A DNA stretch of 64,000 nucleotides from Rubricoccus marinus (GTDB lineage Bacteria; Bacteroidota; Rhodothermia; Rhodothermales; Rubricoccaceae). Position 1 is the stretch's first letter, and every line of letters starts with the position of its first letter. The stretch lies in assembly GCF_002257665.1 (NCBI RefSeq), contig NZ_MQWB01000010.1, positions 62,001 through 126,000 on the forward strand, given 5' to 3'. The notes beneath the pieces were generated by a model that saw only the letters and a program-made list of their open reading frames with translations, did no database searches and was not told the origin of the DNA. The translations under genes and the position numbers were made by a program. Shown piece after piece: positions 26,359 to 42,428 of this stretch.

Positions 26359-26976
26359 TCAGTCGATCCATCCCCGTCGCGCGGCGATTCGCGCCAGCTC
26401 GGCGCCCGTCCGGATCCCCAGCTTCGAGAAAACCCGGCCACGGTACGTCGAAACAGTGGAGGGCGCGATTCCGAGTGCGCGTGACGCCTCCTCACGGCTC
26501 TCCCCGCGAGCCAAGCACCGAGCGACTTGAATCTCCCGCGGCGTGAGGACCCCTTCGCGTCGCCCCTCTGCGCGCTCGGCCAGCACCTCCGCTAAGTCCG
26601 CCGGGATCACGCGCCGACCGCTGGCGGCCCTCCGCACCGCTGCCGGGAGCACGTCGGGCGCCTCGTTCTTATCGACGTACCCCACGCCACCCGCTTGAAG
26701 CACCTGGAGCCCGAGCTCGCGCGAGGGGTGCGCGGACAAAACCAGAACGGGGAGGTCCGGCCGTTCCACTCGCAGACGGGCGACGACCTCCAAGCCGCCG
26801 AGGCCCGGCATCGAGAGGTCAACGACCGCCACGTCCAACGCGAGCGCGCGCGACAGCGAGAGCGCCTCCTCACCGTTCTCCGCCTCGCCTACCACCTCGA
26901 TGCCCTCGTCATTGAGCGCCTCGCGTACGCCACGGCGCACAAAGGGGTGATCATCGGCGATAAGAACGCGGATCAT
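26359..26976 (-). CDS. NarL/FixJ-type response regulator
   Basis: This 205-residue protein has a receiver domain (IRVLIADDHPFVRRG; D8, D9, phospho-acceptor D53 in VVDLSMPG, Lys in YVDKNE) and a C-terminal LuxR-type HTH. The HTH reads LTPREIQVARCLARGESREEASRALGIAPSTVSTYRGRVFSKL, split here by family positions. Its start overlaps the stop of the partner kinase gene by 4 bases (26973-26976), so they form one two-component operon. It converges with the secretion operon, ending 11 bases from it. Control of that operon is possible but not shown. Confidence 0.92.
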   Translation of the reverse strand: MIRVLIADDHPFVRRGVREALNDEGIEVVGEAENGEEALSLSRALALDVAVVDLSMPGLGGLEVVARLRVERPDLPVLVLSAHPSRELGLQVLQAGGVGYVDKNEAPDVLPAAVRRAASGRRVIPADLAEVLAERAEGRREGVLTPREIQVARCLARGESREEASRALGIAPSTVSTYRGRVFSKLGIRTGAELARIAARRGWID

Positions 26977-28115
26977 TGTGAGGGGGCGCTCGGATCACCA
27001 AATGGAAGGGAAATGCCCACCCGCGTGCCCCAACCCGATGACGCGATAACGCTCAGCTCACCTCCCCATACCCGAGCCCGCTCTGTCATCCCTATCAGAC
27101 CGAGCGCGCCGCACCGGACCTTCTCCGGTTCAAAGCCTTTACCGTCGTCGGTAACAACGATGTCCACCCCTTTTCTCCCACGCGAGAGGCGAACCGCGAC
27201 GCTAGAGGCGTCGGCGTGCTGAGCCACATTGGTGAGGGCCTCCTGCACGATGCGAAACGCCGCCGTGGCGTGATCCGCTACCAGAAGAGCCTCGGCCGAA
27301 CACGACAGCGTGGACTCCACCTCGCACGCGACGCCCGTCCTCTCCTCGAACCTCCTGGCGACCTCACGGAGGGCACCCGAAAGGCCCAACTCGTCGAGTT
27401 CAGGGGGGCGGAGGTTAGCCGCGAGGTCTCTGACGTTCTGAAGCGCCCGAGCTGCCAGCGTGTCGAACTCTTCCAGCCGGCGATCGAGAATACCGGGGTC
27501 CAATAGGTCGAGCCCCCCCGCACGCCGCCGCAGATACCGGGCGTCGAACCGAAGCGCCGTTAGCACCTGTCCGAGGTCGTCGTGGAGGTCGCGCGCAACG
27601 CGCGTCCGTTCCGCTTCCCGCTCGGACTGCGCGCGCCCAGCGAGGGCGCGCAGCAAGGCGATCGATCGAACCGCTTCGAGGCGCGCCTGCTCGCGGACCG
27701 TCACGTCGAGGGCCACCCCGATAACTCTCGTCAGCTCCCCACTCAAGCTCCCGAAAGAGGGCTCGTACGTGGTCTCGAACGTGCGCTCCCCTGAAGGAGT
27801 CGACACCCTCGACGTCGCGACAAACGCCTCGCCGGCCAGCGCACGCCGGACAGCTGTCAGCACCTCGGGAGCGTCCGCGTAGAGCGCGAACACGGAGCGC
27901 CCGACGGGATTTGACTCCCGGGACCGCAGCGGCGCACGTCCCGAACCGGTGGATGAGAGGATCACCCCCGCGGGGTCGAGCTCAAAAACGACGACGGGGA
28001 TCGATCCTGCTACGGCTGATAGCAAGCCGCCTGAGGCCACCGGCGATGTCGGAGCACAAGGGGTGATGCGAGCGGCCGACGGCCACCGATCATGTGAGAG
28101 GGCGTGCGATGCCAT
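26973..28115 (-). CDS. PAS-domain sensor histidine kinase (HisKA_3)
   Basis: The 380-residue kinase has no membrane segment and so is probably cytosolic. A PAS/PAC sensor (about residues 30-145; VVVFELDPAGVILSSTGSG) precedes the HisKA_3 dimerisation helix with phospho-acceptor H178 in RVARDLHDDLGQ. A NarX/DesK-type HATPase_c domain follows (EALTNVAQHADA, VTDDGKGF, GALGLIGMTER). The sensed signal is unknown. It overlaps the response regulator by 4 bases. The ATG at 28115 is the only good start. Confidence 0.9.
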   Translation of the reverse strand: MASHALSHDRWPSAARITPCAPTSPVASGGLLSAVAGSIPVVVFELDPAGVILSSTGSGRAPLRSRESNPVGRSVFALYADAPEVLTAVRRALAGEAFVATSRVSTPSGERTFETTYEPSFGSLSGELTRVIGVALDVTVREQARLEAVRSIALLRALAGRAQSEREAERTRVARDLHDDLGQVLTALRFDARYLRRRAGGLDLLDPGILDRRLEEFDTLAARALQNVRDLAANLRPPELDELGLSGALREVARRFEERTGVACEVESTLSCSAEALLVADHATAAFRIVQEALTNVAQHADASSVAVRLSRGRKGVDIVVTDDGKGFEPEKVRCGALGLIGMTERARVWGGELSVIASSGWGTRVGISLPFGDPSAPSQ

Positions 28116-28118
28116 CGG

Positions 28119-28709
28119 CTAGCGCAACAGCTTGGGATCGGACGGGGCGATGAGGCGCGCGTCGCCCGCCGCCCGCCCACGGAGTTCGTAGCGGAGCCGG
28201 TCGATCCGAACCGCAGCACTCTCTCCACCGGGCACCCAGTCGGTGTGTCCACCCGCTTTGCTCGCGTCGCCAGAGCCATCCCCAGGAACAGCATCGTAGT
28301 CGTACTCGATGATCTCCGTGCAGGACGTTGGAGTGCAGTGGGTTTCTCTGTGAACGGAGGTCGGACCGTCCGTCGTCGAGCCCCCATCGGGGGTCTCGTC
28401 AGCTTCCTCCGCGTCTCCGAGGAATCTCGAGTACTGCGGCACCCCGCGGGACAGTCCCGTCACTCGCACGACCTCACGGTTGGGGGCCGAGAGGAGAACG
28501 TGGTGGCGTCCATCGTTCATCAAAGCGCTCGATAGCCGCACCCTTCCGGCGGTGAACTCGACGCGGTCTCCAGGCTCGAGAGGCAGCGGGTAGAACCGGA
28601 CGTCAATGGCCCCGGCGCCCAAAGACACGACGGTCGGCTCGGAGATGTCCGGGGAGGCGCAGGCGGCGAAGCCCATGAGTGCGCCGAAAAGCAGCACGAA
28701 GCGAGGCAT
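28119..28709 (-). CDS. Secreted lipoprotein between two signalling operons
   Basis: Starting at ATG 28707-28709, this 196-residue protein has a signal peptide with lipobox (MGFAACASPD). It continues as an unrecognised beta-rich domain with an acidic linker (GDAEEADETPDGGSTTDGP) and two cysteines in HCTPTSCTE. It lies 3 bases upstream of the sensor-kinase gene on the same strand, so it may be co-transcribed and could present a signal, but this is inference. Confidence 0.65.
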   Translation of the reverse strand: MPRFVLLFGALMGFAACASPDISEPTVVSLGAGAIDVRFYPLPLEPGDRVEFTAGRVRLSSALMNDGRHHVLLSAPNREVVRVTGLSRGVPQYSRFLGDAEEADETPDGGSTTDGPTSVHRETHCTPTSCTEIIEYDYDAVPGDGSGDASKAGGHTDWVPGGESAAVRIDRLRYELRGRAAGDARLIAPSDPKLLR

Positions 28710-28825
28710 ATTCGAGGGGCGGGTGGGACCCTCGCATGTTGCCCGAGCACCGCGGTTGGCACATAGGCGTCCGCTCCCGATTGGGCTGGAGGTTCCTCTA
28801 CTTCCCCCGGGTCCCGCCGTCGTCG

Positions 28826-29437
28826 CTACGGCGCGTGGGGGCCGATGCCGTTCTCCCACGCCCACGCCATTGCCTCACGACTCGACGTTGCTCCCACCTT
28901 CTCGTATACCCCCGTGAGGGTGTTGCGGACCGTGCTCTCGGAGACGAAGAGCGTGTCCGCGATGTCCGCGTTTGAGAGCCCCTTCGCTAGGAGTCGAAGC
29001 ATGTCTCGTTCCCGCTCGGTAAGGCTTCCAATCGGGTGCATCGGGTCGTTTGGCACGACGTGCCACCTTCCCTGACCACTCGCCACCGCCTTCACGGCGG
29101 CGATTAACTCCTGTTCTGGCGTGTCCTTCGTGATGTACCCCGCAGCTCCGGCATCGAGCATCGCGCGGATGAAACCGCGCCCGTCGTGGGCGGAGAAGGC
29201 GAGGATGCGGGCTGAGGAGCCTTTAAGGGCCTGTGCCACGTCTGCACCAGACCGATCCCCGTCGTTGAGGTCCACATCCAGAACGACCACGTCCGGCGAT
29301 ACGGATCGAGCAAAGCGCAGAGCCTCCGTCACACTCGCCGCTTCTGCCACGACCTCGATGCCGGGGTCGGTTTCGAGCGAACGACGTACCCCTGCACGGA
29401 GCATGGGGTGGTCATCGACGAGGAGGACACGGATCAT
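28826..29437 (-). CDS. NarL/FixJ-type response regulator (second pair)
   Basis: The 203-residue regulator has a receiver domain (IRVLLVDDHPMLRAG; D8, D9, phospho-acceptor D54 in VVVLDVDLND, Lys in YITKDT) and a LuxR-type HTH (LTERERDMLRLLAKGLSNADIADTL). It overlaps the downstream end of its kinase gene by 4 bases (29434-29437). The region upstream of the receiver tail is unremarkable. It belongs to the second of two similar operons lying side by side, probably of common origin though clearly diverged. Confidence 0.92.
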   Translation of the reverse strand: MIRVLLVDDHPMLRAGVRRSLETDPGIEVVAEAASVTEALRFARSVSPDVVVLDVDLNDGDRSGADVAQALKGSSARILAFSAHDGRGFIRAMLDAGAAGYITKDTPEQELIAAVKAVASGQGRWHVVPNDPMHPIGSLTERERDMLRLLAKGLSNADIADTLFVSESTVRNTLTGVYEKVGATSSREAMAWAWENGIGPHAP

Positions 29438-30495
29438 GCTGCCAACCGCATTGAGCCGCGCGCCTCCACGGCTCCGATAGGGATCGTGAGCCGTACTTCG
29501 GTACCGGACCGACCAGGACCCCGCCCAACCGCAAGCGATCCACTCAGCGCACTCGCGCGCTCCGCCATCCCCGCCAGTCCAAAATGGCCCTCGCGCACAA
29601 GTCTGTCTGGAGCACCCGTGCTGAACCGCTCGTCAATCCCCACGCCGTCGTCGCGGATGATGAGCTCGGCCGCGTCGGCCGTGCACTGGACGAACACCCA
29701 CGCGGTCTGCGCCTGCCCATGCTTGGCTGCGTTCGTGAGCGCTTCCTGCGCAACCCGGTACACCGCCAACTCTGCGCCTGTAGAGAGGTTCAGCCCCTCC
29801 GCACGGACGCGCACGGCCAATGGAGTCGGGGCCGTCTCCCAGCGTGCGGCGAGATCCTCCAGGGCTGGGCCTAGGCCGAAGCGGTCAAGAGCAGGGGGGC
29901 GGAGAGCCGCCGCGACAGACCGCACCTCTTTGGCTACGCTGCGAAGTCGCTCTCGCAGTTCAGGCGCCGATTCAAAATCCGAACGCGCGAGCAGGGAGAG
30001 TTGCTGAAGCGGGCCGTCGTGCAACTCGCGGGCAAGACTCGCCCGCTCAGCCTCGCGCGATTTGGACTCGTACCGTGCGATTTGGCGGTACATCGTCGCC
30101 TTGCGACGCGCCGACACCGCCGCGAAGGCGGCAATCGAAAGTAACACTGCCAGAAGCCCTCCACCGATGACTGCTGCCAAGGGAACGTCTTGCTGGAACG
30201 TCATCAAAAGGGCTCCCTCGTTAACCCCGATCCCGATGGCGTCCACATCGGCGGCAGCGGCATGCCGCTCTACAATCGAATACAGCGCGCCAATCGTAGT
30301 CGTCTCCAAACGGAGTGGGGCGGTTTCGCCACCAGGCGAGAGTTGAATCCATGGATCTGCGCCTGCACTCTCCCATACCTCGTAAAGAAGCGCGTCCGTT
30401 CCCGAGCCGTCGAGCCTGTCAACGCGCAGTTCGCCACCCGCGGTCGGTCGGGCTTCTTGAAGAGGATTCATACGTTTAGGGATAGACAGACACAT
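29434..30495 (-). CDS. Membrane sensor histidine kinase (HisKA_3, second pair)
   Basis: The 353-residue kinase has an N-terminal region of about 100 residues that may lie outside the membrane. One clear membrane helix follows (about 104-128, PLAAVIGGGLLAVLLSIAAF), then HisKA_3 with H159 in ARELHDGPLQQL, and HATPase_c (EALTNAAKHGQA, IRDDGVGI, FGLAGMAERA). Because only one helix is visible, the topology of the sensor is uncertain. An internal ATG at 30469-30471 is an alternative start that would remove eight residues. It overlaps its response regulator by 4 bases. Confidence 0.9.
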   Translation of the reverse strand: MCLSIPKRMNPLQEARPTAGGELRVDRLDGSGTDALLYEVWESAGADPWIQLSPGGETAPLRLETTTIGALYSIVERHAAAADVDAIGIGVNEGALLMTFQQDVPLAAVIGGGLLAVLLSIAAFAAVSARRKATMYRQIARYESKSREAERASLARELHDGPLQQLSLLARSDFESAPELRERLRSVAKEVRSVAAALRPPALDRFGLGPALEDLAARWETAPTPLAVRVRAEGLNLSTGAELAVYRVAQEALTNAAKHGQAQTAWVFVQCTADAAELIIRDDGVGIDERFSTGAPDRLVREGHFGLAGMAERASALSGSLAVGRGPGRSGTEVRLTIPIGAVEARGSMRLAA

Positions 30496-30887: not shown

Positions 30888-31304
30888 ATGGCTGGATTCC
30901 TCTTTAGAACAAACGCTCTCGGTAAGCACTACTGGATCCTCCGAGACGGGAACAACGAGACCATTGCGGACGCCCAGCAAGGTGATGGTTACGAGAACGA
31001 ACGCGACGCGAAGCATGGCGCCGACGTGTTCACGAACCTGGGCCACGACGCTCCCCGCCGAGAGATTTCAGAGGGTACCTCAACGGGCGCCAATCCTGAG
31101 TTCGAGTACTTCGAGAGCGCCAGGAACAAGCAGTGGTACTGGCGTTTCCGTGCCAAGAACGGCCGCGTGGTCGCCGACGGCTCCGAGGGATACGGCTCTC
31201 GCTCCAACGTGACGCGTGCGATCGACAACGTCCAAACCGAGCTCACGAAGCTTCGCGACGTCGGTGGCTCCGAAACTCCACCGAGCGACAGCCCCTACGC
31301 CTGA
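30888..31304 (+). CDS. Tandem DUF1508 (YegP-like) protein
   Basis: This 138-residue protein contains two DUF1508-like units: HYWILRDGNNETIADAQQGDGY-NERDAKHGADVF and WYWRFRAKNGRVVADGSEGY-SRSNVTRAIDNV, separated by a 30-residue linker. The domain has no established activity. It starts a four-gene + strand cluster (peroxidase, subtilase with the same N-terminal domain, alpha/beta hydrolase). The shared domain suggests that this protein and the subtilase bind the same partner or each other. Confidence 0.82.
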   Translation: MAGFLFRTNALGKHYWILRDGNNETIADAQQGDGYENERDAKHGADVFTNLGHDAPRREISEGTSTGANPEFEYFESARNKQWYWRFRAKNGRVVADGSEGYGSRSNVTRAIDNVQTELTKLRDVGGSETPPSDSPYA

Positions 31305-31424
31305 AGACGTGCGGTACCGCATCAGGCCTCGCAGTCGCCCGTCTCAACCGCGAGATGTTGCCTGGGCCGCGTCAGGCCAGGACCAATGCTCCCTAAACCG
31401 CTGACCCACGCATCCTCGAACGCT

Positions 31425-33371
31425 ATGCCAACCATTGACCCCAATACTCAGTTCGTACTCCATGGACGCGTCGTCTCCGATGGGAGTGGTGTATCGGGCC
31501 TCAGCGTACAGGCGTTCGACTACGACTTCGGCCGCCCTGTAGACGATCTCGGCACCACGACGACCGGTGACGACGGAGCGTTTGAAATTACGTTCCGCCA
31601 GAGTGCTGCGGGATCACGGTCCGAGGGCACTCCTGAACCCTTCGTCGTCATCCACGACGCTGAGGGCACCCTTCTCGCGCAGACACGATGGATCCGGCTG
31701 GACACTGAGACCACTCTCGATCTTGACGACATCCACGTCGTCGTGAAAAGCCCTGTTGAGGATCCTTCCAGCGCTCCGATAGGGGGTGATCCCGGCGTCA
31801 CACCCGGAACGGCCCCCGAACCCAAGGACCCATCGTCTAAACCCGGTGGAGCGACCCATCATGGGTCCAAGTCTCGCGACTTCGTCGCACCCCGTTCTCC
31901 GTTCTATCGAGGCCCATTCGGTCGACTGTTCCGGGAGTTACCAGCATGGATTCCCCCGGGAGCGACGGACGAAGAAAAGGCCGCTGTCGTCGCGGCCCTC
32001 GCTGCGACAATGGTTGAGGAGGAAGGTGATACAGAGACGGGAGACCACCCCAACATCCCTGCGGCCTACACGTACTTCGGGCAGTTCGTCGACCACGACA
32101 TCACTTTCGATCCAGCGTCCTCTCTTACCAAGCAAAACGACCCGGACCGCCTGATCAACTTTCGGTCCCCCGCCTTCGACCTCGACAACCTGTATGGCGG
32201 CGGACCCGACGACGAGCCCTTCCTCTACGACCGAAACAGTCGCGATCACTTCTTAATCGGGAAAGGGCGACGCCAGCGGACCAGCGATGACGGCGCGATC
32301 GATCTCGTCGCTCTTCCAAAGACGTCCGAAGATGACCTCCCACGAAACGAGCAGGGGAGAGCCCTCATCGGAGACCCTCGGAACGACGAGAACCTGATTG
32401 TTTCGCAACTCCAACTCGCGTTCCTCAAGTTTCACAACGCTACGCTCGATGCAGTCAAGGAGCGGCTTAGTCTAACTGGCCGAGAAGCCTTCTTTCGAGC
32501 CCAGCAGATTGTCCGTTGGCATTATCAGTGGATCGTGCTCTTCGACTTTCTCCCCCGGATCGTCGGCGAGGATATGGCTCAGGCCGTTTTGACGCCCCGC
32601 GGGGAACGCAAGGACGATGTGGCCCGCGCTGAGGCCAAGCCGTTCACGATCGATCTGCGTCACTACAACCCAAAGGAGTCGGCGTTCATGCCGGTCGAGT
32701 TCTCCGCCGCCGCGTACCGGTTTGGTCACAGCCTCGTCCGTGGCGACTACGACCTCAACCGGGTTGTTCGTCGCGTACCCATCTTCAGGCCACCGTCGCA
32801 GAACCCGGGGCCTCTGGCGGACCTTCGAGGCGGCCGTCCGCTGCCCGGGCTGTGGTCCTTGGACTGGCGCCGGTTCCTCGATCTTGACGCCGGCACACCC
32901 GCTCAGCGTGCCCGCCTCGTCGATACCCGCCTGAGCCGCGGGCTGGCGGCGATCCCCTCCGGTCCAGGCAAGGAGAACCCCCTCGCACTTCTCAACCTCG
33001 TACGAGGATGGCGTTTGGGCCTTCCCAGCGGCCAAGCTGTCGCGCAAGCCATGGGCACGACGGTTCTCTCGAACGAGGACCTCGGCCTCGACATCGCTGA
33101 GGTGGGACACGAGGCGCCTCTGTGGTTTTACGTCCTGAAGGAGGGAGAACTCCTCCATGATGGTTTGCACATGGGTCCGGTCGGAGGGCGCATCGTCGGC
33201 GAGGTTTTCGTTGGCCTAGCAGCCGCAGACTCCTCCAGCTTTCTCAATCAGGCCCCCACCTGGACGCCAGGAACCGCGTTCCCAGACGGGCCGCTCATCG
33301 AGCCTCTTGGAGAAGGGTTTCAACTCCGGGACGTCCTCCGCTTCGTCGGCTTGGATGGTGAGCCATTCTAG
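31425..33371 (+). CDS. Animal-type haem peroxidase with N-terminal beta-sandwich domain
   Basis: From ATG 31425 the protein has 648 residues. Residues about 10-110 look like a transthyretin/carboxypeptidase-regulatory-like beta-sandwich (FVLHGRVVSDGSGVSGLSVQ). A Pro/Ser-rich linker leads to a haem peroxidase domain of the cyclooxygenase/peroxinectin group. Its distal His lies in TYFGQFVDHD (H224), the distal Arg region in IGDPRNDEN, and the proximal His in AYRFGHSLV (H435). There is no signal peptide. Such enzymes use H2O2 to make hypohalous acids or oxidise organic substrates. A longer start at 31386 is possible. It lies in the DUF1508-subtilase-hydrolase cluster. Confidence 0.88.
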   Translation: MPTIDPNTQFVLHGRVVSDGSGVSGLSVQAFDYDFGRPVDDLGTTTTGDDGAFEITFRQSAAGSRSEGTPEPFVVIHDAEGTLLAQTRWIRLDTETTLDLDDIHVVVKSPVEDPSSAPIGGDPGVTPGTAPEPKDPSSKPGGATHHGSKSRDFVAPRSPFYRGPFGRLFRELPAWIPPGATDEEKAAVVAALAATMVEEEGDTETGDHPNIPAAYTYFGQFVDHDITFDPASSLTKQNDPDRLINFRSPAFDLDNLYGGGPDDEPFLYDRNSRDHFLIGKGRRQRTSDDGAIDLVALPKTSEDDLPRNEQGRALIGDPRNDENLIVSQLQLAFLKFHNATLDAVKERLSLTGREAFFRAQQIVRWHYQWIVLFDFLPRIVGEDMAQAVLTPRGERKDDVARAEAKPFTIDLRHYNPKESAFMPVEFSAAAYRFGHSLVRGDYDLNRVVRRVPIFRPPSQNPGPLADLRGGRPLPGLWSLDWRRFLDLDAGTPAQRARLVDTRLSRGLAAIPSGPGKENPLALLNLVRGWRLGLPSGQAVAQAMGTTVLSNEDLGLDIAEVGHEAPLWFYVLKEGELLHDGLHMGPVGGRIVGEVFVGLAAADSSSFLNQAPTWTPGTAFPDGPLIEPLGEGFQLRDVLRFVGLDGEPF

Positions 33372-33488
33372 AGGTTGGGCTTCGGCCTCGATCATATGGT
33401 CACAGATCAATGCGAAGTGGCTTGGCGGCTATAGATCCCGTTGGAGCTCGCTTTACCCACCTGATGGTGGCTCAACACATCTCTCTCC

Positions 33489-35396
33489 GTGTCACTACGC
33501 ATTCACAAGACCGACCCCAACACGTTTGCATGGCGCCTTGTCGGACCTGAAGGGCGCATCCTAGCGCTATCCACGCACACGTACCACGACTCTGACTCGG
33601 CTGCCGAAGACGCTGATCGTTTCAGGCGTCACGGAACAGACGAGACCGGCACCACCGGGGCATTCCGTGTCGAAGGACGCGACGGAGCGTTTCGGTGGTT
33701 TTACTCCGACGGCAGTGGCCGCCTTGCTCGGAGTCCGGATCCTCTAGAGTCCGAGGAAGCTGCTGTGGCAGCCTACACGCACGTCCAAACGGTCTTGAAG
33801 GGAGAGTCCCGGCCGCGACAAACATCGCAAGGTTTTGACCCGGAGATCCTTAACCATTCGCTCATCACTGTGCCGCTCCTTGAGCGGTTCGAGCAAGGGC
33901 GAGCCAACGAGTTGCACCGCGTCATCGTCGAACTCAACCACAACTACAGGCGCGAGCTCAGCGGTGCGCACAAAGATGTTAAAAGGTGGATCAAAGACAT
34001 CATCAAGAGTCGCACCGGACGGGACGACAACGCATCTGCTACGGCCCCTGCGCCATCGCACCGTCGCGCACGCCTGCTCAAGGCGCAGTCCAAGCTCAGC
34101 TACCGATACGTTGTCGCAGATCTCACGCGCGCGATGGTCCGCGAGTTGGTCACCCAAGACGGTGAAAATGCGTCCCAAGCTCCTTCAGAAGTTGTAGAGA
34201 ACGCGGTCCCACCGGGACGGGCCATCTACCGCGTGTGGCCCGATTTCAAAGTCCGGCCTCTTCTCCACTACAGTGCGCGTACGGTCAAGGCGGATGCCGC
34301 ACAGAAGGCGTTTGGCGCAGCAGGAAAGGGAGTCGTCTGGGCCGTAGTGGACTCCGGCGTCGATGGTGCTCACCCGCACCTCAAGAGCGCGACGATTCTT
34401 CCTGCCGGGTTGGCTCATAAGGACTTCGTCGACACAGAACGCAAGGGCGCCCCGATCGACCCATTCGGTCACGGCTCTCACGTCGCCGGAATCATCGCTG
34501 GATCGGTTGCCGACGACACGGTCGACGACGACGAGCGTCCGCTCCACCAACTTCAGCAAGAAGCTGACCCTGACGGCGAGCCTCGCTACCGCGCCCGCCC
34601 GGTCGGTGCCATCAGCGGCGTTGCTCCAGACTGCACCGTTCTCAGTGTTCGCGTCCTCGATGCGGATGGCAACGGCCACGCTAGCGACGTTATCGCCGCG
34701 CTCCAGTACGTCGGCTCTCTGAACAAAGGAGGGCGGGACCTTCGGGTCCACGGCGTCAACCTCAGCGTCGGCTATGACTTTGACCCGGAGTGGTATGCGT
34801 GCGGCCACAGTCCACTCTGCCAGGAGGTAGACCTGCTCGTCCGCTCTGGCGTTGTGGTCGTGGCCGCCGCCGGCAACACAGGCCATGGGACAGCCTACGC
34901 AGACGCACGGCAATCAAAAACCGGAATCGACCTCACAATCAACGACCCTGGAAACGCCGAGAAGGCTATTACGGTCGGGTCGACGCACCGCGCGGAGCCT
35001 CACCGGTATGGCGTGTCCTACTTCTCATCCAAAGGGCCTACTGGGGACGGCCGTGCCAAGCCAGACCTCGTTGCTCCCGGTGAGCGCGTGCTCTCGTGTG
35101 CTGCCGGCAGCAAGCGGGATGCGGCAGAGCGCAAGATCGCCCGCATGGCTTCGCGAGAGGAGGGCCCCAGCGCGTGGCCGACAACCTGCCACTACGTCGC
35201 CGATAGCGGCACCAGCATGGCCGCACCTCACGTCTCCGGGGCCATCGCCGCTTTTCTCTCTGTGCGCCGCGAGTTCATCGGCCGGTCCGAAGATGTCAAG
35301 GCGCTCTTTCTGCGCACTGCAACTGATTTGGGACGGGATCCCTACTTCCAGGGAGCCGGCCTCGCCGACCTCATGCGCGCACTTCAAGCTGTCTAA
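33489..35396 (+). CDS. Subtilase (S8) with N-terminal tandem DUF1508 domain
   Basis: The 635-residue protein begins with two DUF1508-like units (WRLVGPEGRILALSTHTY..., about 1-50; FRWFYSDGSGRLAR..., about 58-103). A helical linker (about 115-235) follows, then an S8 peptidase domain with a complete catalytic set: D288 in VVDSGVDG, H328 in FGHGSHVAG, oxyanion N463 in AAAGNTGHG and S576 in SGTSMAAPHVSG. No signal peptide is visible, so it should act in the cytosol. The cytosolic location and fused DUF1508 module fit a regulated protease inside a multi-gene system. It ends 3 bases before the hydrolase gene. Confidence 0.9.
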   Translation: MSLRIHKTDPNTFAWRLVGPEGRILALSTHTYHDSDSAAEDADRFRRHGTDETGTTGAFRVEGRDGAFRWFYSDGSGRLARSPDPLESEEAAVAAYTHVQTVLKGESRPRQTSQGFDPEILNHSLITVPLLERFEQGRANELHRVIVELNHNYRRELSGAHKDVKRWIKDIIKSRTGRDDNASATAPAPSHRRARLLKAQSKLSYRYVVADLTRAMVRELVTQDGENASQAPSEVVENAVPPGRAIYRVWPDFKVRPLLHYSARTVKADAAQKAFGAAGKGVVWAVVDSGVDGAHPHLKSATILPAGLAHKDFVDTERKGAPIDPFGHGSHVAGIIAGSVADDTVDDDERPLHQLQQEADPDGEPRYRARPVGAISGVAPDCTVLSVRVLDADGNGHASDVIAALQYVGSLNKGGRDLRVHGVNLSVGYDFDPEWYACGHSPLCQEVDLLVRSGVVVVAAAGNTGHGTAYADARQSKTGIDLTINDPGNAEKAITVGSTHRAEPHRYGVSYFSSKGPTGDGRAKPDLVAPGERVLSCAAGSKRDAAERKIARMASREEGPSAWPTTCHYVADSGTSMAAPHVSGAIAAFLSVRREFIGRSEDVKALFLRTATDLGRDPYFQGAGLADLMRALQAV

Positions 35397-35399
35397 CCA

Positions 35400-36710
35400 A
35401 TGAATCACATCGCCGATTTCCCCTTCTTTCCTCTCCATGTCGACCGCGACGCGCAACTCCTGAAGCCCGAGGAGGAAGCCGCGTTTCTCTCTCATCTCAA
35501 CGAGTCGCACGTCCAGAACCTTCTTGTACTCTCGCACGGCTGGAACAACGATCTAGAGGAGGCTCGCACGCTTTACTCCGAACTCCTCGCCAACCTTCGC
35601 GCCACTCTAGAGGCAGAAGACACGTATGCCTTGGGTGGAAGCACAGCAGTACTCGGTGTGTACTGGCCGTCCAAGCGTTTTGCTCCTCCCTCGAAGATCT
35701 CAGGTGGGGCAGCGTCTATCGGTGGCGATGCCTCCTCCGACGATGTACAACGCGCGTTAAACACCCTTGCCGACACGCTGGGTCCAGATGCGGCGGAAGC
35801 GCTAAGAAAGGCTGCAGACCTAAGCCTGGATCTCGACGAACGCCAGGTGCAAAACGAGTTCGTCGATGCCATCCGGAAGGCGCTGCCGGACTCTGCGACC
35901 GAGGGCTCCGACCCCATTCCGCCCCGTCTCCGATCAGCATCGGGCTTCGAAGTATTAGGCCTGCTAGCCCCGCCTCCTCCGCCACCTCCAGCCTCTGGCG
36001 GGACAGGAGGAGCCACCTCCTTCTCGCCGCTATCCGTGCGGGACCCTTCCGGCGGAGCCGCAGGGATTGGCGATACGCTCCGGGGCATCCGCGCCGCCGC
36101 CCTTCGGCTCGCAAACCTCACGACTTACTACACCATGAAGGAGCGTGCTGGCAACGTTGGGAAACACGCACTTGCCCCTGTGCTGAATCGCCTTGCTGCC
36201 GCACACCCAGCTCTCCGCATTCATCTCTGTGGGCACAGCTTTGGGGGACGCGTCGTGACTGCGGCAGCATCCGCCGTCGCCGAACCTGTAAGCTCGCTCG
36301 TGCTGCTCCAGGCAGCTTTCTCTCACAACGGGTTCTCTGCCGACTTCGGGACTGGAAAGCCTGGAGCGTTTCGGAACGTCCTTGATGACCATAAAGTGAG
36401 CGGGTCGATCGTCATCACGCATACCTCCAACGACAGGGCGGTGGGGCTCGCGTACCCCCTCGCGTCACGGCTAGCGGGTCAGGCCGCCAGCTCATTCGGT
36501 GGTCCCGAGGACCGCTTCGGAGGAATTGGCCGCAACGGCGCTCAGCGCACAGATGAGGCTCAACACCAGCGGTTGCTGCCGACAGGGCAGGCGTACTCGT
36601 TCTCCGAAGGGGGGCTCTACAACCTCCGCGCGGATGACCACATCACCGACCATAGCGACGTGACAGGCCGTGAGGTTGCCGCAGCTCTCGTTGCTGCCAT
36701 GGGCGCTTAA
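35400..36710 (+). CDS. Alpha/beta-hydrolase (serine esterase/lipase-like)
   Basis: The 436-residue protein has an alpha/beta-hydrolase core split by a long insertion (about 95-230, with a poly-Pro stretch). LLVLSHGWNND (residues 41-51) gives the oxyanion-side strand, and IHLCGHSFGGRVV the nucleophile elbow with Ser280. A likely acid is in ITHTSNDRAVG, and the catalytic His is probably in DDHITDHSDV. The fold and motif resemble cytosolic esterase/lipase-like proteins that accompany proteases in some conflict systems. The gene lies 3 bases after the subtilase gene and closes the cluster. Confidence 0.82.
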   Translation: MNHIADFPFFPLHVDRDAQLLKPEEEAAFLSHLNESHVQNLLVLSHGWNNDLEEARTLYSELLANLRATLEAEDTYALGGSTAVLGVYWPSKRFAPPSKISGGAASIGGDASSDDVQRALNTLADTLGPDAAEALRKAADLSLDLDERQVQNEFVDAIRKALPDSATEGSDPIPPRLRSASGFEVLGLLAPPPPPPPASGGTGGATSFSPLSVRDPSGGAAGIGDTLRGIRAAALRLANLTTYYTMKERAGNVGKHALAPVLNRLAAAHPALRIHLCGHSFGGRVVTAAASAVAEPVSSLVLLQAAFSHNGFSADFGTGKPGAFRNVLDDHKVSGSIVITHTSNDRAVGLAYPLASRLAGQAASSFGGPEDRFGGIGRNGAQRTDEAQHQRLLPTGQAYSFSEGGLYNLRADDHITDHSDVTGREVAAALVAAMGA

Positions 36711-36719
36711 AGGACGCTT

Positions 36720-36742
36720 GCTCACACCCTTACTGTGTGAGC
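36720..36742. promoter_or_regulatory. 8-bp inverted repeat between two clusters
   Basis: GCTCACAC (36720-36727) and GTGTGAGC (36735-36742) form a perfect inverted repeat with a 7-base spacer. It lies 9 bases after the hydrolase stop and about 100 bases before the first TIR gene. It could be a weak terminator or an operator for the TIR operon. Confidence 0.45.
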
Positions 36743-36843
36743 GGTAAGGTCAGCACGCGGGGAAACCACTCAAGTGCGTCTGTCATGTGACAAAGCGTGG
36801 CGCACGAGACGAGATATGTTCGTCGGCTACTCGAAAGAAATCA

Positions 36844-37380
36844 ATGGCATCCTACCTATCCGACACGTCCCTGCGGGCGCGGAGCATCAAGCGCTACGAC
36901 CCCGACCTCAAGCTGGAGTCGTCGCCGGGCACCTCCTACAGCTCCGTCTTCCTCTCGCACAGCCACCTCGATAAGGATCTCGTCGAAGGGCTCGTGGACC
37001 GGCTCGCTCGCCTGGGCGTCCGGGTTTACGTCGACTGGAAGGACGCGACGCTTCCCGCATCGCCGTCACGTGACACCGTCGAGACGATCAAGAAGCAGAT
37101 CGTCGCCAACGACGTGTTCATGCTCCTCGCCACCGACCGCGCCCTGGAGTCGAAGTGGGTTCCCTGGGAGCTCGGCGTCGCCGACCAGGCGAAGGGCTAC
37201 GACCGGATCGTCGTGGTCCCCGTCACTCGCAACGGCACATACTTGGGAAGCGAGTACGTCCGGGTGTACCGTCAGCTCCGCGAAGAACTCGGTTCGCTGA
37301 AGATCTTCGGCCCCGGCGGCTCCGGGACCGGCTCCGCGGCCAGCAACTACCTGCGTGGCAAGGCGGCAATCTTCGGGTAG
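36844..37380 (+). CDS. TIR-domain protein (first of the cluster)
   Basis: The 178-residue protein is essentially one TIR domain after a 30-residue leader. SVFLSHSHLDKDLVEGLVDRL is box 1 with its following helix (about residues 34-54), VRVYVDWKDATL the BB-loop side, and ESKWVPWELGVAD the segment with the likely catalytic glutamate E109 (W-x3-E). With that Glu it could be an NAD+-using enzyme, as in many bacterial TIRs. The ATG at 36844 gives the cleanest start. It heads a five-gene + strand set with short gaps (44, 4, 11 and 22 bases). Confidence 0.88.
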   Translation: MASYLSDTSLRARSIKRYDPDLKLESSPGTSYSSVFLSHSHLDKDLVEGLVDRLARLGVRVYVDWKDATLPASPSRDTVETIKKQIVANDVFMLLATDRALESKWVPWELGVADQAKGYDRIVVVPVTRNGTYLGSEYVRVYRQLREELGSLKIFGPGGSGTGSAASNYLRGKAAIFG

Positions 37381-37424
37381 ACCACGGCCAGACCGCCCCC
37401 AATCGCAAGACTACCCCCCAACCA

Positions 37425-38015
37425 ATGCGCCGCACGTTCTTCAGCTTTCATTACGACCGCGACCACTGGCGGGCGTGGCAGGTCCGCAACTCCTGGGTCA
37501 CGAAAGGGGACCGGGAGTCCAGGGGCTTCTTCGACAGTTCCGTCTTCGAGTCCAAGAAGCGGACGAGCGACGCCGCCCTCAAGGAGTTCCTCCGCACCGG
37601 GCTCAAGAACTGCGGAGTGACGTGCGTCCTGGCGGGAAGCCAGACCGCGCACCGCCGCTGGGTCCGCTACGAGCTCGTCCGCAGCTTCATGGCCGGGAAG
37701 GGGATTCTCTGCGCCAAGATCCACCGACGTAAGAACAGCGCGGGCGCCGTAGATACCGCCGGTCCCAATCCGCTGGATCAGCTCGCGTTCGTTGTCACTG
37801 GCGACCGCATCTCGTTCAAGGAGATGAAGAACGGCACGTGGGTTCCCTACACCGACGCCCCCAGCTTAGCCCGACGAGAGGTCCCGTACGCGCTCGGCAG
37901 CAAGACCAACCACACCTTCGCTACCCTGTTTTCGACCTATGACTATGTGACCGAGGACGGGTACAACAACCTCGGCCGCTGGATCGAGACTGCCGCCCGT
38001 CAAGCCGGACGCTAA
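37425..38015 (+). CDS. ThsB-like TIR protein (Thoeris signal-synthase family, DUF1863)
   Basis: The 196-residue protein opens with RRTFFSFHYDRDHWRAWQVRN, the signature of the ThsB/DUF1863 (MTH538-like) TIR-related family. It continues with the expected glutamate in RRWVRYELVRSF (E83). In Thoeris systems ThsB senses phage and makes a cyclic-ADP-ribose-type signal that activates ThsA. No ThsA (SIR2-SLOG or Macro-TM) gene is adjacent; instead a SLOG protein and a SEFIR protein follow. It starts 44 bases after the first TIR gene and ends 4 bases before the third. Confidence 0.88.
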   Translation: MRRTFFSFHYDRDHWRAWQVRNSWVTKGDRESRGFFDSSVFESKKRTSDAALKEFLRTGLKNCGVTCVLAGSQTAHRRWVRYELVRSFMAGKGILCAKIHRRKNSAGAVDTAGPNPLDQLAFVVTGDRISFKEMKNGTWVPYTDAPSLARREVPYALGSKTNHTFATLFSTYDYVTEDGYNNLGRWIETAARQAGR

Positions 38016-38019
38016 CCCC

Positions 38020-39192
38020 ATGCCCGTCCCGTCCCCTTATCAGGTCGTCCTCCTGGGCCAAACGCGCCCGGCCGTCCGCGACGCGCTCCGCAAGACGCTA
38101 GTCGCGCGGATGCGCGAGATGGACCTCGACGTGGACGCACACGTCGTCTTCCTCGATGCCTCCGACGCCCGCGCGCTGACCCAGGCTGGTCCGGCCGTCT
38201 GCGCCTTTGTTGGGGGCTACAGCTACGACGCGATGGACGCCGCCACCGTCGCCTGGCTCGTGGACGACGCTGTGCTGATACTCCCGCTCGTCGAATCGCT
38301 GGACGGGTACAAGAGCCAGGTGCCTAAATCCCTCCGGCCGATCCACGGGAAGGTTCTCTCCGACACGGCCGAGTCTGTCGAGTCCGCCGTCGGCCTCATT
38401 ATGGAGGGGCTTGGGCTGCTCCGCCGCACCCGACGCCTGTTCATCAGCTACCGGCGCACCGAGGCGTCCGACGCCGCCCACCAGCTCTACGACCTCCTCG
38501 ACGACCGAGGTTTCGACGTCTTCCTCGACACCCGCAAGGTCCGACCCGGCGACCCGTTCCAGGAAGAGCTTCTCCACCGCCTCAGCGATTCCGACGTTCT
38601 CATCATCCTCGACACCGACGGGTTCCTAGAGAGCGAGTGGACGCGGGAGGAACTGGCCCAGGCGCAAGCGATGGCGCTCGGCATCCTCCAGGTCCAGTGG
38701 CCTGGCGTCGGCCGTCCCGCCTACGCCGCGCTCTGCACCGTCGTCCCGCTCGACGCCGCCGACCTTGACGGGAAGCGCCTCACCGACGACGCCCTCCACC
38801 GGGTCGGGCACCAGACCGAGACGCTCCGCGCGCGGTCCATCGCCGCGCGCTACACCAGCCTCGTCGGGTCCTTCGACGCCATCGCCGAACAAGAGGGGGT
38901 CCCATCGACCGTCCAGCCAACTCGGTACCTCGAACTCGCGCCACCTGGGAAGGACCCCGTCGCGGTCATCCCGACGGTCGGCGTCCCCGAGACGCTCTCC
39001 TACCAGGACGTCGAGGCGCTGCTCTCTCGCCTCGCCTCGGACGGGGCGGCGGCCCCCTCCCGCGCCGTCATTCTCTACGACCCGGTCCCCGTCCGGCCCC
39101 GCTGGAAGCAGCACCTCGACTGGCTCGACGGCCACCTTCCGGTCCAGACCGTCACGGTGTCTGGTGCCGAGGCGTGGCTCCGCTCGCTCTGA
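38020..39192 (+). CDS. TIR-domain protein with unknown N- and C-terminal domains
   Basis: The 390-residue protein has a central TIR domain (about 137-235): LFISYRRTEASDAAHQLYDLL, GFDVFLDTRKVRPGDPF, and SEWTREELAQAQ with the likely catalytic E211. The first 130 residues form a Rossmann-like alpha/beta region (YQVVLLGQTRPAVRDAL, CAFVGGYSYDAMD). The last 150 (AVIPTVGVPETLSYQDVEALL, VILYDPVPVRPRWKQHLDWL) form another unrecognised region. The TIR core may be the effector or signal synthase and the flanks sensor or assembly parts. It is tightly packed between the ThsB-like and SLOG genes. Confidence 0.82.
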   Translation: MPVPSPYQVVLLGQTRPAVRDALRKTLVARMREMDLDVDAHVVFLDASDARALTQAGPAVCAFVGGYSYDAMDAATVAWLVDDAVLILPLVESLDGYKSQVPKSLRPIHGKVLSDTAESVESAVGLIMEGLGLLRRTRRLFISYRRTEASDAAHQLYDLLDDRGFDVFLDTRKVRPGDPFQEELLHRLSDSDVLIILDTDGFLESEWTREELAQAQAMALGILQVQWPGVGRPAYAALCTVVPLDAADLDGKRLTDDALHRVGHQTETLRARSIAARYTSLVGSFDAIAEQEGVPSTVQPTRYLELAPPGKDPVAVIPTVGVPETLSYQDVEALLSRLASDGAAAPSRAVILYDPVPVRPRWKQHLDWLDGHLPVQTVTVSGAEAWLRSL

Positions 39193-39203
39193 CCCCGCCT
39201 GCG

Positions 39204-39791
39204 ATGCCCGACCTGACCCCCATTTTTCTCTCCGCAAGCGTCCCCGATCCGGATCGCCACCCCCGGTACTTCGAGACCGCCGACTTCGTCGCCATCCGGG
39301 AGGCCGTCCGCGCCCTCGCGGCCTTCGTGCTCCCTCGCGCCCGACTCGTGTGGGGCGGCCACCCCGCCATCACGCCGATCATCCGGGCCGTCGCGGAGGC
39401 GGTGGACCTCGACGTGCAGGAGCACGTCGTGCTCTACCAGTCCGACTTCTTCCGCGACGTCTTTCCGCAAGACAACGATGCGTTCGCTCGTATCCAAGTC
39501 ACCGAACGGCTGGCGACACGCGACGAGAGCCTGCGGCTGATGCGCGACGAGATGCTCGGGGCCTACCCATTCTCGACGGCCCTCTTCATTGGGGGCATGG
39601 AGGGAGTCGAGGACGAGGCCGAGCTGTTCCTCCGGCGCCACCCCCACGCCGCTTTCGTCCCCGTCGCGACAACCGGGGCAGCCGCGCGCATCCTCTACGA
39701 CCGACACGCCGCCCGCCTACGTCTGTCCGACGCTCTCGCTGACCAATACGCCTACGGTGCGCTTTTCCGCGACCTCGTCCGCCTAGGCTAA
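39204..39791 (+). CDS. SLOG-superfamily protein (nucleotide-ligand sensor-like)
   Basis: This 195-residue Rossmann-like protein matches the stand-alone SLOG group found with TIR genes. It has the N-terminal FLSASVPDPDRHPRYFETADF segment and VLPRARLVWGGHPAITPII with the glycine turn expected to hold a nucleotide ligand. ALFIGGMEGVEDEAELF is a second strand-turn. SLOG domains in conflict systems bind or process NAD-derived or nucleotide signals. It may read a signal made by the neighbouring TIR proteins, which is inference. It starts 11 bases after the TIR gene and ends 22 bases before the SEFIR gene. Confidence 0.78.
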   Translation: MPDLTPIFLSASVPDPDRHPRYFETADFVAIREAVRALAAFVLPRARLVWGGHPAITPIIRAVAEAVDLDVQEHVVLYQSDFFRDVFPQDNDAFARIQVTERLATRDESLRLMRDEMLGAYPFSTALFIGGMEGVEDEAELFLRRHPHAAFVPVATTGAAARILYDRHAARLRLSDALADQYAYGALFRDLVRLG

Positions 39792-39813
39792 CGCGAGTAG
39801 TCACCCGCACCCA

Positions 39814-41283
39814 ATGTCTGACGCCGACGACCGCCCCCAGGGACCGCGCACGTTCCTCTCTTACAGTTGGAGCAGCCCAGAGCACGAGGACTGGGTGCTC
39901 CGTCTCGCAGGCGACCTCGTAGACCTCGACGTCGACGTCGTCCTCGACAAGTGGGACCTTCAAGATGGCGACGACCCGTTCCCGTTCATGGAGCGAATCG
40001 TCACCGATCCCGACCTGAAAAAGGTCGTCCTGATCTGCGACCGCGAGTACGTCCGCAAGGCCGACGCCCGCGAGGGCGGGGTCGGCGCCGAAGCTCAGAT
40101 CCTCACCCCGGAACTGTACCGGGCCGCCCAGGCTGATCCCGAAGCCCCCGGTCACGAGAAGGCCGAAACGCGCAAATTCGTTGCCGTCGTCCGCGAGCCT
40201 GCTCCTCCTTGGGAGCGCTCGGCGCCCGCCTTCTACGGCGGCCGAATCCACATCGACATGGCCGACGACGAGGGCTATGGTGACGCCCTCACCCGCCTCT
40301 CGCGCTGGATCTACGACAAGCCGCTCCATGTGCGGCCCCCGCGCGGCAAGGCCCCCGCCTTCGTTACTGACGGTGACGCCCCGAGTACCAGCACGTCCGT
40401 TCGCCAGCGCCACGCGATAAAGGCCCTCCGCGAAGGCCGCCGCGAGGCGGATGGGGCCGTCGACGACTACTTCGAGACGCTCGCCGGGAACCTGCCCCGC
40501 TTCGACCTCGACCCCGAGGATGACCGCCCGACCCAGGCCGCCGTCGTGGAGCGTGCAGACCAGCTTCGACCCGTCCGGGACGAGGTGCTCGATGTCGTCA
40601 AGGCGCTCGTCCGCTACCGGCCGGAGCCTGAGGGGTGGGAGCCGGTCCACCTGTTCTTCCAGCGGTGCCTCCCTCTGCTGGACCCGCTCGTGCTCAACTC
40701 CCGAGTCAACACGTGGTCCCGCGACCACTTCCGTCTCGTCGTTCCCGAGCTGTTCCTCTACGCCCTCGCCGCGCTCCTCCAGCGGCGCCGGTACGAGAAC
40801 GCGGCGTACATGCTCTCCGAGCCGTTCACGCTCCCCGAGAGCGGCCGAGGCAGCGGGCTTGTGCCGTTCACATACCTCCAGCAGGGGTCGGAGGCTCTCC
40901 AGCGGCATTATCAGGACCAAAACGAGCGGTGGATCAGTTATCAGGGGACATGGATCCACGGCCGCGCCGACTCCACGGGCGTTCCCTTCGATGCCGTCAT
41001 GCAGGCGGATCTCGTCCTGGCCCTCCGCGCTGAAGAAAGTGACTTCGGCTACTGGTGGCCGAGTACGCTCGTGTACAAAGAGCGGCGGCCTGGGCCGTTC
41101 GACGTGTTTGCCCGGTCCGCCTCGGCGGAGCACTTCGAGCGCTTGATGCCCGTGCTCGGCGTCTCCTCCGCCGAAGAACTCCGCCAGCGAGCGGACGGGA
41201 TGGGCCGAGACGGTTGGATTCACGACCACCACGTCCACGTCCCCGGTCTCATCGGCAGTGAGCACCTCGCGTCGCAACCCTAA
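39814..41283 (+). CDS. SEFIR-domain protein with large unknown C-terminal part
   Basis: The 489-residue protein starts with a SEFIR domain (about 10-150), a TIR relative: RTFLSYSWSSPEHEDWVLRLA, VDVVLDKWDLQDGDD, KKVVLICDREYVRKAD-REGGVGAE-QILT, then the strand RKFVAVVRE. Residues 160-489 form a mainly helical region with no recognised domain (PVHLFFQRCLPLLDPL, VPELFLYALAALLQRRR, and others). It could be a ligand-binding or target-recognition part. In bacteria SEFIR occurs in defence-type clusters. It closes the five-gene set, 56 bases before the AbiEi-like gene. Confidence 0.82.
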   Translation: MSDADDRPQGPRTFLSYSWSSPEHEDWVLRLAGDLVDLDVDVVLDKWDLQDGDDPFPFMERIVTDPDLKKVVLICDREYVRKADAREGGVGAEAQILTPELYRAAQADPEAPGHEKAETRKFVAVVREPAPPWERSAPAFYGGRIHIDMADDEGYGDALTRLSRWIYDKPLHVRPPRGKAPAFVTDGDAPSTSTSVRQRHAIKALREGRREADGAVDDYFETLAGNLPRFDLDPEDDRPTQAAVVERADQLRPVRDEVLDVVKALVRYRPEPEGWEPVHLFFQRCLPLLDPLVLNSRVNTWSRDHFRLVVPELFLYALAALLQRRRYENAAYMLSEPFTLPESGRGSGLVPFTYLQQGSEALQRHYQDQNERWISYQGTWIHGRADSTGVPFDAVMQADLVLALRAEESDFGYWWPSTLVYKERRPGPFDVFARSASAEHFERLMPVLGVSSAEELRQRADGMGRDGWIHDHHVHVPGLIGSEHLASQP

Positions 41284-41310
41284 GCACTCGTTTTCACTGC
41301 AAGAGTCATT

Positions 41311-41326
41311 TTCACCGAGCGGTGAA
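41311..41326. promoter_or_regulatory. TTCACC-N4-GGTGAA operator-like dyad upstream of abiEi-like gene
   Basis: TTCACC (41311-41316) and GGTGAA (41321-41326) form a perfect dyad. TTTTCAC (41291-41297) and GGTGAAA (41339-41345, covering the GTG start) are further half-sites. Known AbiEi antitoxins repress their own operon by binding inverted repeats, so this is a good candidate autoregulatory site. Confidence 0.5.
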
Positions 41327-41339
41327 GTAGCTTGCCAGG

Positions 41340-42428
41340 GTGAAAGAACATGAACTCGCCTCCACGATCCTGAGCCGCCTTGGCGCCCTCCTGAGCCAGG
41401 TGCCGTCGGTGCGCTCGGTCGATTCTCAGCCCGAGGCACTAGGCGGAGAGGCAGGACGCGCCGACGGCGCTCTCGCGGTCACGCTCGTTGGGGGCGCGGT
41501 CCACACACTCGTCGTCGAGGCCAAGGGCAACGCCCAGCCACGCAACGTGCGCGACGCCGCCCGCAGGCTCACGGCCCACATCAACGCGCTCCGCTCGGAC
41601 GGCGTGCCCCACCCGTCGGCCATCTTGGGCGCTCCCTACGTCTCGGAGCGGTCCGCCGCCGTCCTCGCAGAGCATGGCGTCGGCCACCTCGACCTCGCCG
41701 GAAACGCCCGCCTCGCCTTCGGCCCCGTCTACGTCGAGCGGTCCGGTCTCGCCAACCCCCACGCCGTCGAGCGCCCGTACACCTCGCTCTTCGCGCCCAA
41801 AACCTCGCGTGTCGCCCGCGCCCTCCTCGCCCACCCCGCCCGCGTCTGGCGACTCCAAGAACTCGCCGACGAACTCGACGTCAGCCTCGGCCTCGTCGCC
41901 AAGGCCAAGGCCTCACTCCTCGACGGCGAGTACGCCCGAGACTCGCCCGACGGGCTCGCTCTCGCCGACCCCAACGGCCTCCTCAACGCTTGGCTCGCCG
42001 CCGACCGTCGCCGACCGAAGCCTCGTGGCTACTACTCGCTCGACTCTGTCTCGGAGGCCGAGCGCCGCATCGCGGACGCCGCTCGGGCCTCGGGCGCCCG
42101 CGCTGCGCTCACGTCATTCTCTGGCGCTGAGCGTGTCGCTCCCCACGTCCGTTACTCCCACGCCAGCATCCTCATCGAGGCAGACGCGCTGAAGGACGTC
42201 GCTGAGCGTGCAGGTCTCAGGCCCGTGGAGACAGGCGCGAACGTCCGGCTCCACGAGCCCTACGACAACGGCGCCTTCTACGGTGCCCATGATGTCGATG
42301 GTGTACCAGTCGTTCACCCGGTCCAGCTCGTCCTTGACCTAGCACGTGAGAAGGGAAGGGGAGAGGAGGCCGCCGACTTCCTCCGCCGCCACGCTCTCGC
42401 GCCCGCCTGGGCCGACCTCCGCCGTTGA
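41340..42428 (+). CDS. AbiEi-family antitoxin/transcription regulator-like protein
   Basis: The 362-residue protein resembles AbiEi-type antitoxins of the longer PF09952-like group. It has an N-terminal restriction-endonuclease-like fold (VVEAKGNAQPRNVRDAARRL, about 58-77), then a winged-helix region (WRLQELADELDVSLGLVAKAKASL, about 160-185), and a C-terminal alpha/beta domain ending with VHPVQLVLDL. Type IV antitoxins repress their operon and counter the nucleotidyltransferase toxin without binding it. It starts at GTG 41340, and its stop overlaps the TTG start of the next gene (42425-42428), as in abiE operons. Here two further genes follow. Confidence 0.78.
   Translation: MKEHELASTILSRLGALLSQVPSVRSVDSQPEALGGEAGRADGALAVTLVGGAVHTLVVEAKGNAQPRNVRDAARRLTAHINALRSDGVPHPSAILGAPYVSERSAAVLAEHGVGHLDLAGNARLAFGPVYVERSGLANPHAVERPYTSLFAPKTSRVARALLAHPARVWRLQELADELDVSLGLVAKAKASLLDGEYARDSPDGLALADPNGLLNAWLAADRRRPKPRGYYSLDSVSEAERRIADAARASGARAALTSFSGAERVAPHVRYSHASILIEADALKDVAERAGLRPVETGANVRLHEPYDNGAFYGAHDVDGVPVVHPVQLVLDLAREKGRGEEAADFLRRHALAPAWADLRR

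Follow-up and report, generated by a model that had tools for sequence, protein, structure and literature searches.

Do four neighbouring genes of Rubricoccus marinus, encoding a DUF1508 protein, a haem peroxidase, a subtilase and an alpha/beta hydrolase, form a single system, and could such a system act as a lethal effector? Both had been suggested in an original prediction made from the letters of a 64,000-nucleotide stretch of this genome (GCF_002257665.1, NZ_MQWB01000010.1 positions 62,001-126,000, forward strand), hereafter called the window, to which all positions below refer. Our analyses indicate that the four genes are not conserved together as a single unit. At their core is a cassette of two genes, S8 protease and hydrolase, to which the peroxidase and the tandem DUF1508 protein are accessory, being joined to it only sporadically. 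The four predicted open reading frames (ORFs) are all present where they had been placed:

30888..31304, + strand: gene 1, stand-alone tandem DUF1508 protein (UPF0339/YegP/HVO_2922-like) of 138 amino acids (aa); PF07411, E 1.7e-19, in two stretches
31386..33371, + strand: gene 2, animal-type haem peroxidase of 661 aa, cytosolic by sequence; PF03098, E 1.4e-20
33489..35396, + strand: gene 3, S8 subtilase of 635 aa, putatively a zymogen; PF00082, E 1.8e-44; pro-subtilisin fold match from a model with a low predicted local distance difference test score (pLDDT); triad invariant
35400..36710, + strand: gene 4, alpha/beta hydrolase with a lipase-like fold and the residues S280-D345-H418

The conservation of the pair carries this conclusion. 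An S8 protease gene directly followed by a hydrolase gene, in the same order and on the same strand, was found in 12 loci from at least four named phyla, the window included. Besides R. marinus, the loci come from Chloroflexota, Acidobacteriota, Pseudomonadota and Actinomycetota, with Anaerolineales (L001), Acidobacteria (L002), Rhodococcus (L006, L009, L021), Rhizobium (L007, L018) and Sinorhizobium (L008) as hosts, and further loci from the Chloroflexota sample (L036) and the Acidobacteriota sample (L038, L040). Many more Rhizobium plasmids have S8 and hydrolase matches side by side. The sequence distances of the two proteins correlate across loci (Mantel r 0.79; 0.50 after removal of near-duplicates, p 0.005). 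Besides the window, no S8 relatives were found among 60 relatives of the R. marinus genome and no hydrolase among 345 genomes of the phylum, which left other phyla as the basis for assessing conservation. That the adjacency reflects one operon inherited among close relatives was considered and rejected, since the loci span phyla and the S8 proteins are 43-59% identical to the window protein. Protease and hydrolase thus very probably form a functional unit, whereas co-conservation of all four genes does not hold. Our literature search found no paper describing the S8-hydrolase pair, with most subscription journals outside its reach. Decayed copies occur as well: in R. rhodochrous, the S8 gene that precedes the hydrolase seems to be broken (L021:6357-8324), and the hydrolase of Rhodococcus DK176 is interrupted by an IS5 element (L112:8953-9408).

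Both members of the pair are also found with other partners. Nine loci have a member of this hydrolase family next to caspase-fold (clan-CD) proteases of the CHAT, C25 or C11 type. In Nostoc (L019) the order is hydrolase, C25, then CHAT-nSTAND1-WD40; the partner is C25 in Sinorhizobium terangae (L020), CHAT in Planktothrix (L109), Bradyrhizobium (L110), Gemmobacter (L111) and loci L035 and L042, C11 in L037, and both CHAT and C25 in L039. A protease was present nearby in 21 of 22 intact hydrolase loci, the remaining one being L041. Conversely, plasmid pCMU01 of Methylorubrum CM4 (L022:1380-8055) carries the Pycsar cyclase PycC, an E2 protein and PycTIR, followed by an S8 protease of the window subfamily and a metallo-beta-lactamase (MBL) protein matching Avs1a and LmuA, so that this protease-MBL arrangement directly adjoins a Pycsar operon. 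From this exchange of partners we conclude that the window pair is a subtilase version of known protease-hydrolase conflict pairs. The kind of conflict machinery is known, and the new part is the S8 protease partner.

The catalytic residues D288, H328 and S576 of gene 3 are intact, as predicted, and together with the oxyanion residue N463 they are invariant in an alignment of 12 sequences, one of which is partial and lacks the D288 region. The protein also matches the PADLOC subtilase model (E 6.9e-53). A tandem DUF1508-like module (residues 1-105) is followed by a subtilisin-type propeptide domain (approximately 115-251), which the original prediction had missed, and the catalytic domain (279-624). 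The structural matches include the unprocessed pro-subtilisin ProN-Tk-SP (Z 17.4), and because the alignment with unprocessed pro-subtilisins spans propeptide and catalytic domain together (residues 115-626), the modelled gene 3 product looks like a zymogen. This match is believable because the order of secondary structures and the sequence family agree with it.

For gene 4, the assignment as a Ser280 hydrolase is borne out by S280, D345 and H418, which are invariant in 19 sequences, and by a model (pLDDT 77) with a lipase/esterase-like fold. Foldseek searches with the hydrolase returned no match with E under 0.001, and since Nir2 DDHD, a Bacillus lipase and Tle3 tied at Z 13-14, we do not claim a specific substrate. 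No useful match to the hydrolase was found in phage records and viral contigs. Between the second strand region and the catalytic helix, the protein contains an insertion of about 150 residues that had been overlooked previously:

35673..36125, + strand: hydrolase insertion, residues 92-242, candidate lid or gate and cleavage region

The insertion is partly disordered in the model, with low-confidence stretches at residues 95-109 and 193-227, and it measures 124-158 residues in 18 of the 19 aligned hydrolases. This makes it a candidate for a gate that the protease could open.

The most economical mechanism is that the protease activates the hydrolase, a proposal that we consider evenly balanced between right and wrong. 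The cell would produce an intracellular S8 protease in zymogen form, carrying a subtilisin-type propeptide; upon a trigger, this protease would mature and clip the insertion, thereby unmasking the hydrolase. The unmasked enzyme might then damage membrane lipids or other acyl esters, so that the infected cell stops growing or dies. In this it would resemble the nucleases of Hachiman, Avs and canu, which are gated by proteases. At the R. marinus locus, the cassette would have gained a haem peroxidase, perhaps as an oxidant output, and tandem DUF1508 domains, one as a free protein and one fused to the protease, that may sense the trigger or tether the protease. A core that works as a proteolytically triggered, lipase-type abortive-infection module with peroxidase and DUF1508 add-ons is a reading to which we give an even chance, and for an antiphage role of the pair the arguments on the two sides appear to us of about equal weight. 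The lethal-effector reading of the original prediction is still the best one, because the hydrolase family elsewhere adjoins caspase-like proteases and STAND/CHAT genes. The argument that had been drawn from the adjacent TIR/pAgo genes is weak, as their composition differs and a hairpin lies between.

Several observations weigh against this reading. The structure model of the S8 protease is poor (mean pLDDT 47), a weakness that stems from the smaller alignments on which it was built, and subtilisin propeptides also serve ordinary folding. In L002, the pair is kept although the hydrolase insertion comprises only 21 residues, so that not every such pair can be gated by an insertion. Next to the window pair, no sensor NTPase was identified. 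None of the other S8-hydrolase pairs was found to have a peroxidase homologue of gene 2 beside it; 6 kb from the pair of S. medicae lies a peroxidase of a different type, which belongs to a P450-peroxidase unit on the opposite strand. The pairs in L001 and L007 are surrounded by metabolic genes, and no conflict gene is apparent near them. These metabolic neighbours, and plasmid annotations that read only S8 peptidase and hypothetical protein, would fit a housekeeping or nutrient-recycling pair for intracellular proteolysis and ester hydrolysis. We regard this as unlikely, because the hydrolase is sporadic (1/345, 4/301 and 6/297 genomes in three genome samples), many copies are on plasmids, and the partners are swapped with CHAT, C25 and MBL proteins next to STAND and Pycsar genes.

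Hydropathy analysis revealed no N-terminal signal-like or transmembrane stretch in any of the four proteins, in agreement with the predicted lack of signal peptides. This would also suit an antibacterial payload of protease, lipase and peroxidase delivered by a contractile injection system or a similar apparatus, as would the peptidoglycan-hydrolase-type genes near three pairs (L009:5268-9739, L018:11652-12818, L040:10840-11484) and the tyrosinase near the L036 pair (L036:3002-3778). However, the phage-tail sheath family (PF04984) is absent from the R. marinus genome and from six of ten other hydrolase-bearing genomes, which makes delivery highly improbable. For the R. marinus genome, cargo of an extracellular contractile injection system was dropped because the sheath family is absent. 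Locus L040 additionally contains TPR-S and vWA genes within 7 kb of the pair.

The accessory genes were correctly identified in the original prediction. Gene 2 is an animal-type haem peroxidase by a wide margin (PF03098, 73.8 bits compared with a cut-off of 25), and all sequences of a seven-sequence alignment retain its distal His237 (GQFVDHD) and proximal His448 (RFGHS) as well as Arg332, Glu335 and Asn537. The protein shares with the animal haem peroxidase family the fold, both haem histidines and the catalytic Arg and Asn, but differs in being bacterial and without a signal peptide. Its profile matches lactoperoxidase and peroxinectin structures, it is approximately 37-42% identical to other bacterial members, and it has no NCBIfam match. 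A transthyretin-like stretch at the N-terminus, missed before, stays below the threshold (E 0.013). Peroxidases of this type occurred in 4/340, 10/294 and 13/301 genomes of three genome samples. Neither an S8 family member nor the hydrolase or a tandem DUF1508 gene was found near the peroxidase in 25 genomic regions elsewhere, several of them on short contigs. In most cases the neighbours of the peroxidase are unrelated, and on plasmids several of these peroxidases lie among metabolic genes. Three exceptions suggest a loose link of the peroxidase to such loci. In Nostoc, a peroxidase precedes the hydrolase by approximately 0.9 kb, in the order peroxidase-hydrolase-C25-CHAT/STAND. A Spirosoma plasmid (L013:7749-11587) encodes, in this order, a haem peroxidase, a tandem DUF1508 protein and a ThiF protein that matches E1-E2 models of PADLOC, and a Palleronia plasmid (L045:5900-11533) has an S8 peptidase of another subfamily, a haem peroxidase and a peptidase annotated as C1 in a row. 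Peroxidases co-occurred with the hydrolase in 3 of 10 hydrolase-carrying genomes, compared with 23 of about 595 (p 0.005, genome size uncontrolled). On Mesorhizobium and Paroceanicella plasmids (L044:7725-13397, L046:7869-13261), a peroxidase is followed by a protein of about 135 aa without a Pfam match, a larger protein that is TPR-like in one of the two, and a YcaO protein.

Gene 1 is a tandem DUF1508 protein as predicted (PF07411, 69.9 bits for a gathering cut-off of 22, two repeats), and its closest plasmid homologue is the Spirosoma YegP protein, which is 49% identical and encoded beside the peroxidase. The predicted fusion of the same domain to the protease fared less clearly:

33489..33818, + strand: DUF1508-like tandem module at the N-terminus of the protease, residues 1-105; hhalign E 0.001; no counterpart in the other aligned relatives

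Taken alone, this module stays under the Pfam cut-off (PF07411, 11.9-12.9 bits compared with 22, E 0.1-0.2). Alignment to the profile of the stand-alone DUF1508 proteins (hhalign E 0.001, both repeats in register) and a shuffle test with the Spirosoma DUF1508 protein (z 5.5) nevertheless argue for homology, and a low-confidence model places the predicted elements of residues 1-104 in the order beta-beta-beta-alpha/beta-beta-alpha. By sequence, the N-terminus of gene 3 is therefore probably a tandem DUF1508. No further DUF1508-S8 fusion was found among the other S8 relatives aligned, and a sensing or targeting role of the common domain therefore stays hypothetical. The window proteins share the tandem domain with the UPF0339/DUF1508 family (YegP, HVO_2922; PDB 6q2z, 3bid); the fusion to an S8 protease sets the gene 3 product apart and had no parallel among the other relatives examined. 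Literature searches for DUF1508 together with subtilase or peroxidase yielded nothing relevant, and those for HVO_2922, UPF0339 or YegP only incidental mentions. The only other DUF1508 gene of the R. marinus genome also lies in the window, 13 kb upstream (17410-17868, - strand), and encodes a second tandem protein of 152 aa beside a PIN-like ORF.

Could the four genes nonetheless be one integrated system, with the DUF1508 proteins as sensors of the trigger and a coordinated triple effector made up of protease, hydrolase and peroxidase? The genes are on the same strand with gaps of 81, 117 and 3 bp, and the GC content at their third codon positions (GC3) is similar (0.65-0.75) and below that of the TIR/pAgo block that follows. 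DUF1508 is present both free and on the protease, peroxidase and DUF1508 are adjacent in Spirosoma, and peroxidase and hydrolase are close to each other in Nostoc. On the other hand, no second locus with all four genes was found, the S8 fusion is unique among aligned relatives, and the other partners are missing from the 25 genomic regions around a peroxidase, so that we treat integration as possible but doubtful. A further reading, which we consider improbable, is a lipase-peroxidase cascade: the S8 zymogen would activate the hydrolase, freed fatty acids would be oxidised by the peroxidase to toxic or signalling lipids, and DUF1508 would sense or dock. At a related locus, such a cascade could use the peroxidase-P450 pair instead of a haem peroxidase, and, if true, it would parallel the lipase-oxygenase alarm pathways of animals. 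In their place beside the S8-hydrolase core, the two genes provide an initial pointer to what DUF1508 and the cytosolic animal-type peroxidases of bacteria may do.

Downstream, gene 4 is followed by what may be the end of the unit and by a dense block of further genes:

36720..36742, + strand: hairpin with a perfect 8-bp stem between the hydrolase and the TIR gene, from sequence and RNA folding; not a canonical terminator, since it lacks a T run
36787-45657: ThsB-like TIRs, SLOG (LD_cluster3), bSEFIR, two further ORFs and a pAgo matching pAgo_II

With the same strand and only 76 bp between gene 4 and the first TIR gene, all of these genes might be taken for one defence system. At the boundary, however, GC3 steps from 0.65 to 0.84, the TIR, SLOG, SEFIR and pAgo genes ranging from 0.80 to 0.88, and the hairpin intervenes. 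Neither TIR nor pAgo genes were observed next to the remaining S8-hydrolase pairs, and the only TIR seen near the S8 subfamily is that of the CM4 Pycsar operon, where the partner is an MBL. One joint system is thus very unlikely, and the four genes and the block are probably separate acquisitions within one variable region. The locus showed neither a tRNA nor repeats flanking an island. Upstream, a gap of 390 bp separates gene 1 from two histidine kinase-response regulator pairs (26359-30495, - strand), which were recognised by eye in their translations and are divergent from the cluster.

How does the pair relate to known systems? IetAS likewise has an S8 protease in an antiphage context, and gene 3 is weakly similar to IetS (PADLOC/NCBIfam). 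However, the score of 37.9 bits against model NF042956 is far under the family cut-off of 900, and the partner in IetAS is an AAA ATPase, in the window a hydrolase. Closer in arrangement are the caspase and alpha/beta-hydrolase pairs of MoxR-vWA/VMAP systems: in VMAP systems, a caspase domain is reported never to occur without an adjoining alpha/beta-hydrolase gene (Kaur et al. 2020, PMC7159879). The likeness drawn here is one of gene arrangement. The window differs in that its peptidase is a putative S8 zymogen outside the caspase superfamily and in the added peroxidase and DUF1508 genes, and no VMAP or MoxR-vWA core was present among the scanned neighbours, which comprise part of the window genes.

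In the gated nucleases of Hachiman, Avs, Lamassu and canu, a protease gene lies beside an insertion-bearing hydrolase and partners vary between systems. Trypsin or caspase partners activate these gated MBL pro-nucleases, and further enzyme classes with active-site-blocking insertions have been proposed (Tuck et al. 2025, PMC12799240). In CM4, a protease of the window S8 subfamily has an Avs1a/LmuA-type MBL as its partner, whereas the window effector is a lipase-fold alpha/beta hydrolase rather than an MBL, and S8 replaces trypsin or caspase. By analogy, the S8-hydrolase pair fits the proposal of other enzyme classes under protease control. The combination of subtilase and lipase-type hydrolase provides a concrete, testable candidate for one of the further enzyme classes proposed in 2025. 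Should the protease indeed activate the hydrolase, activation by proteolysis in bacterial immunity would come to include another family of proteases and an effector of the membrane type.

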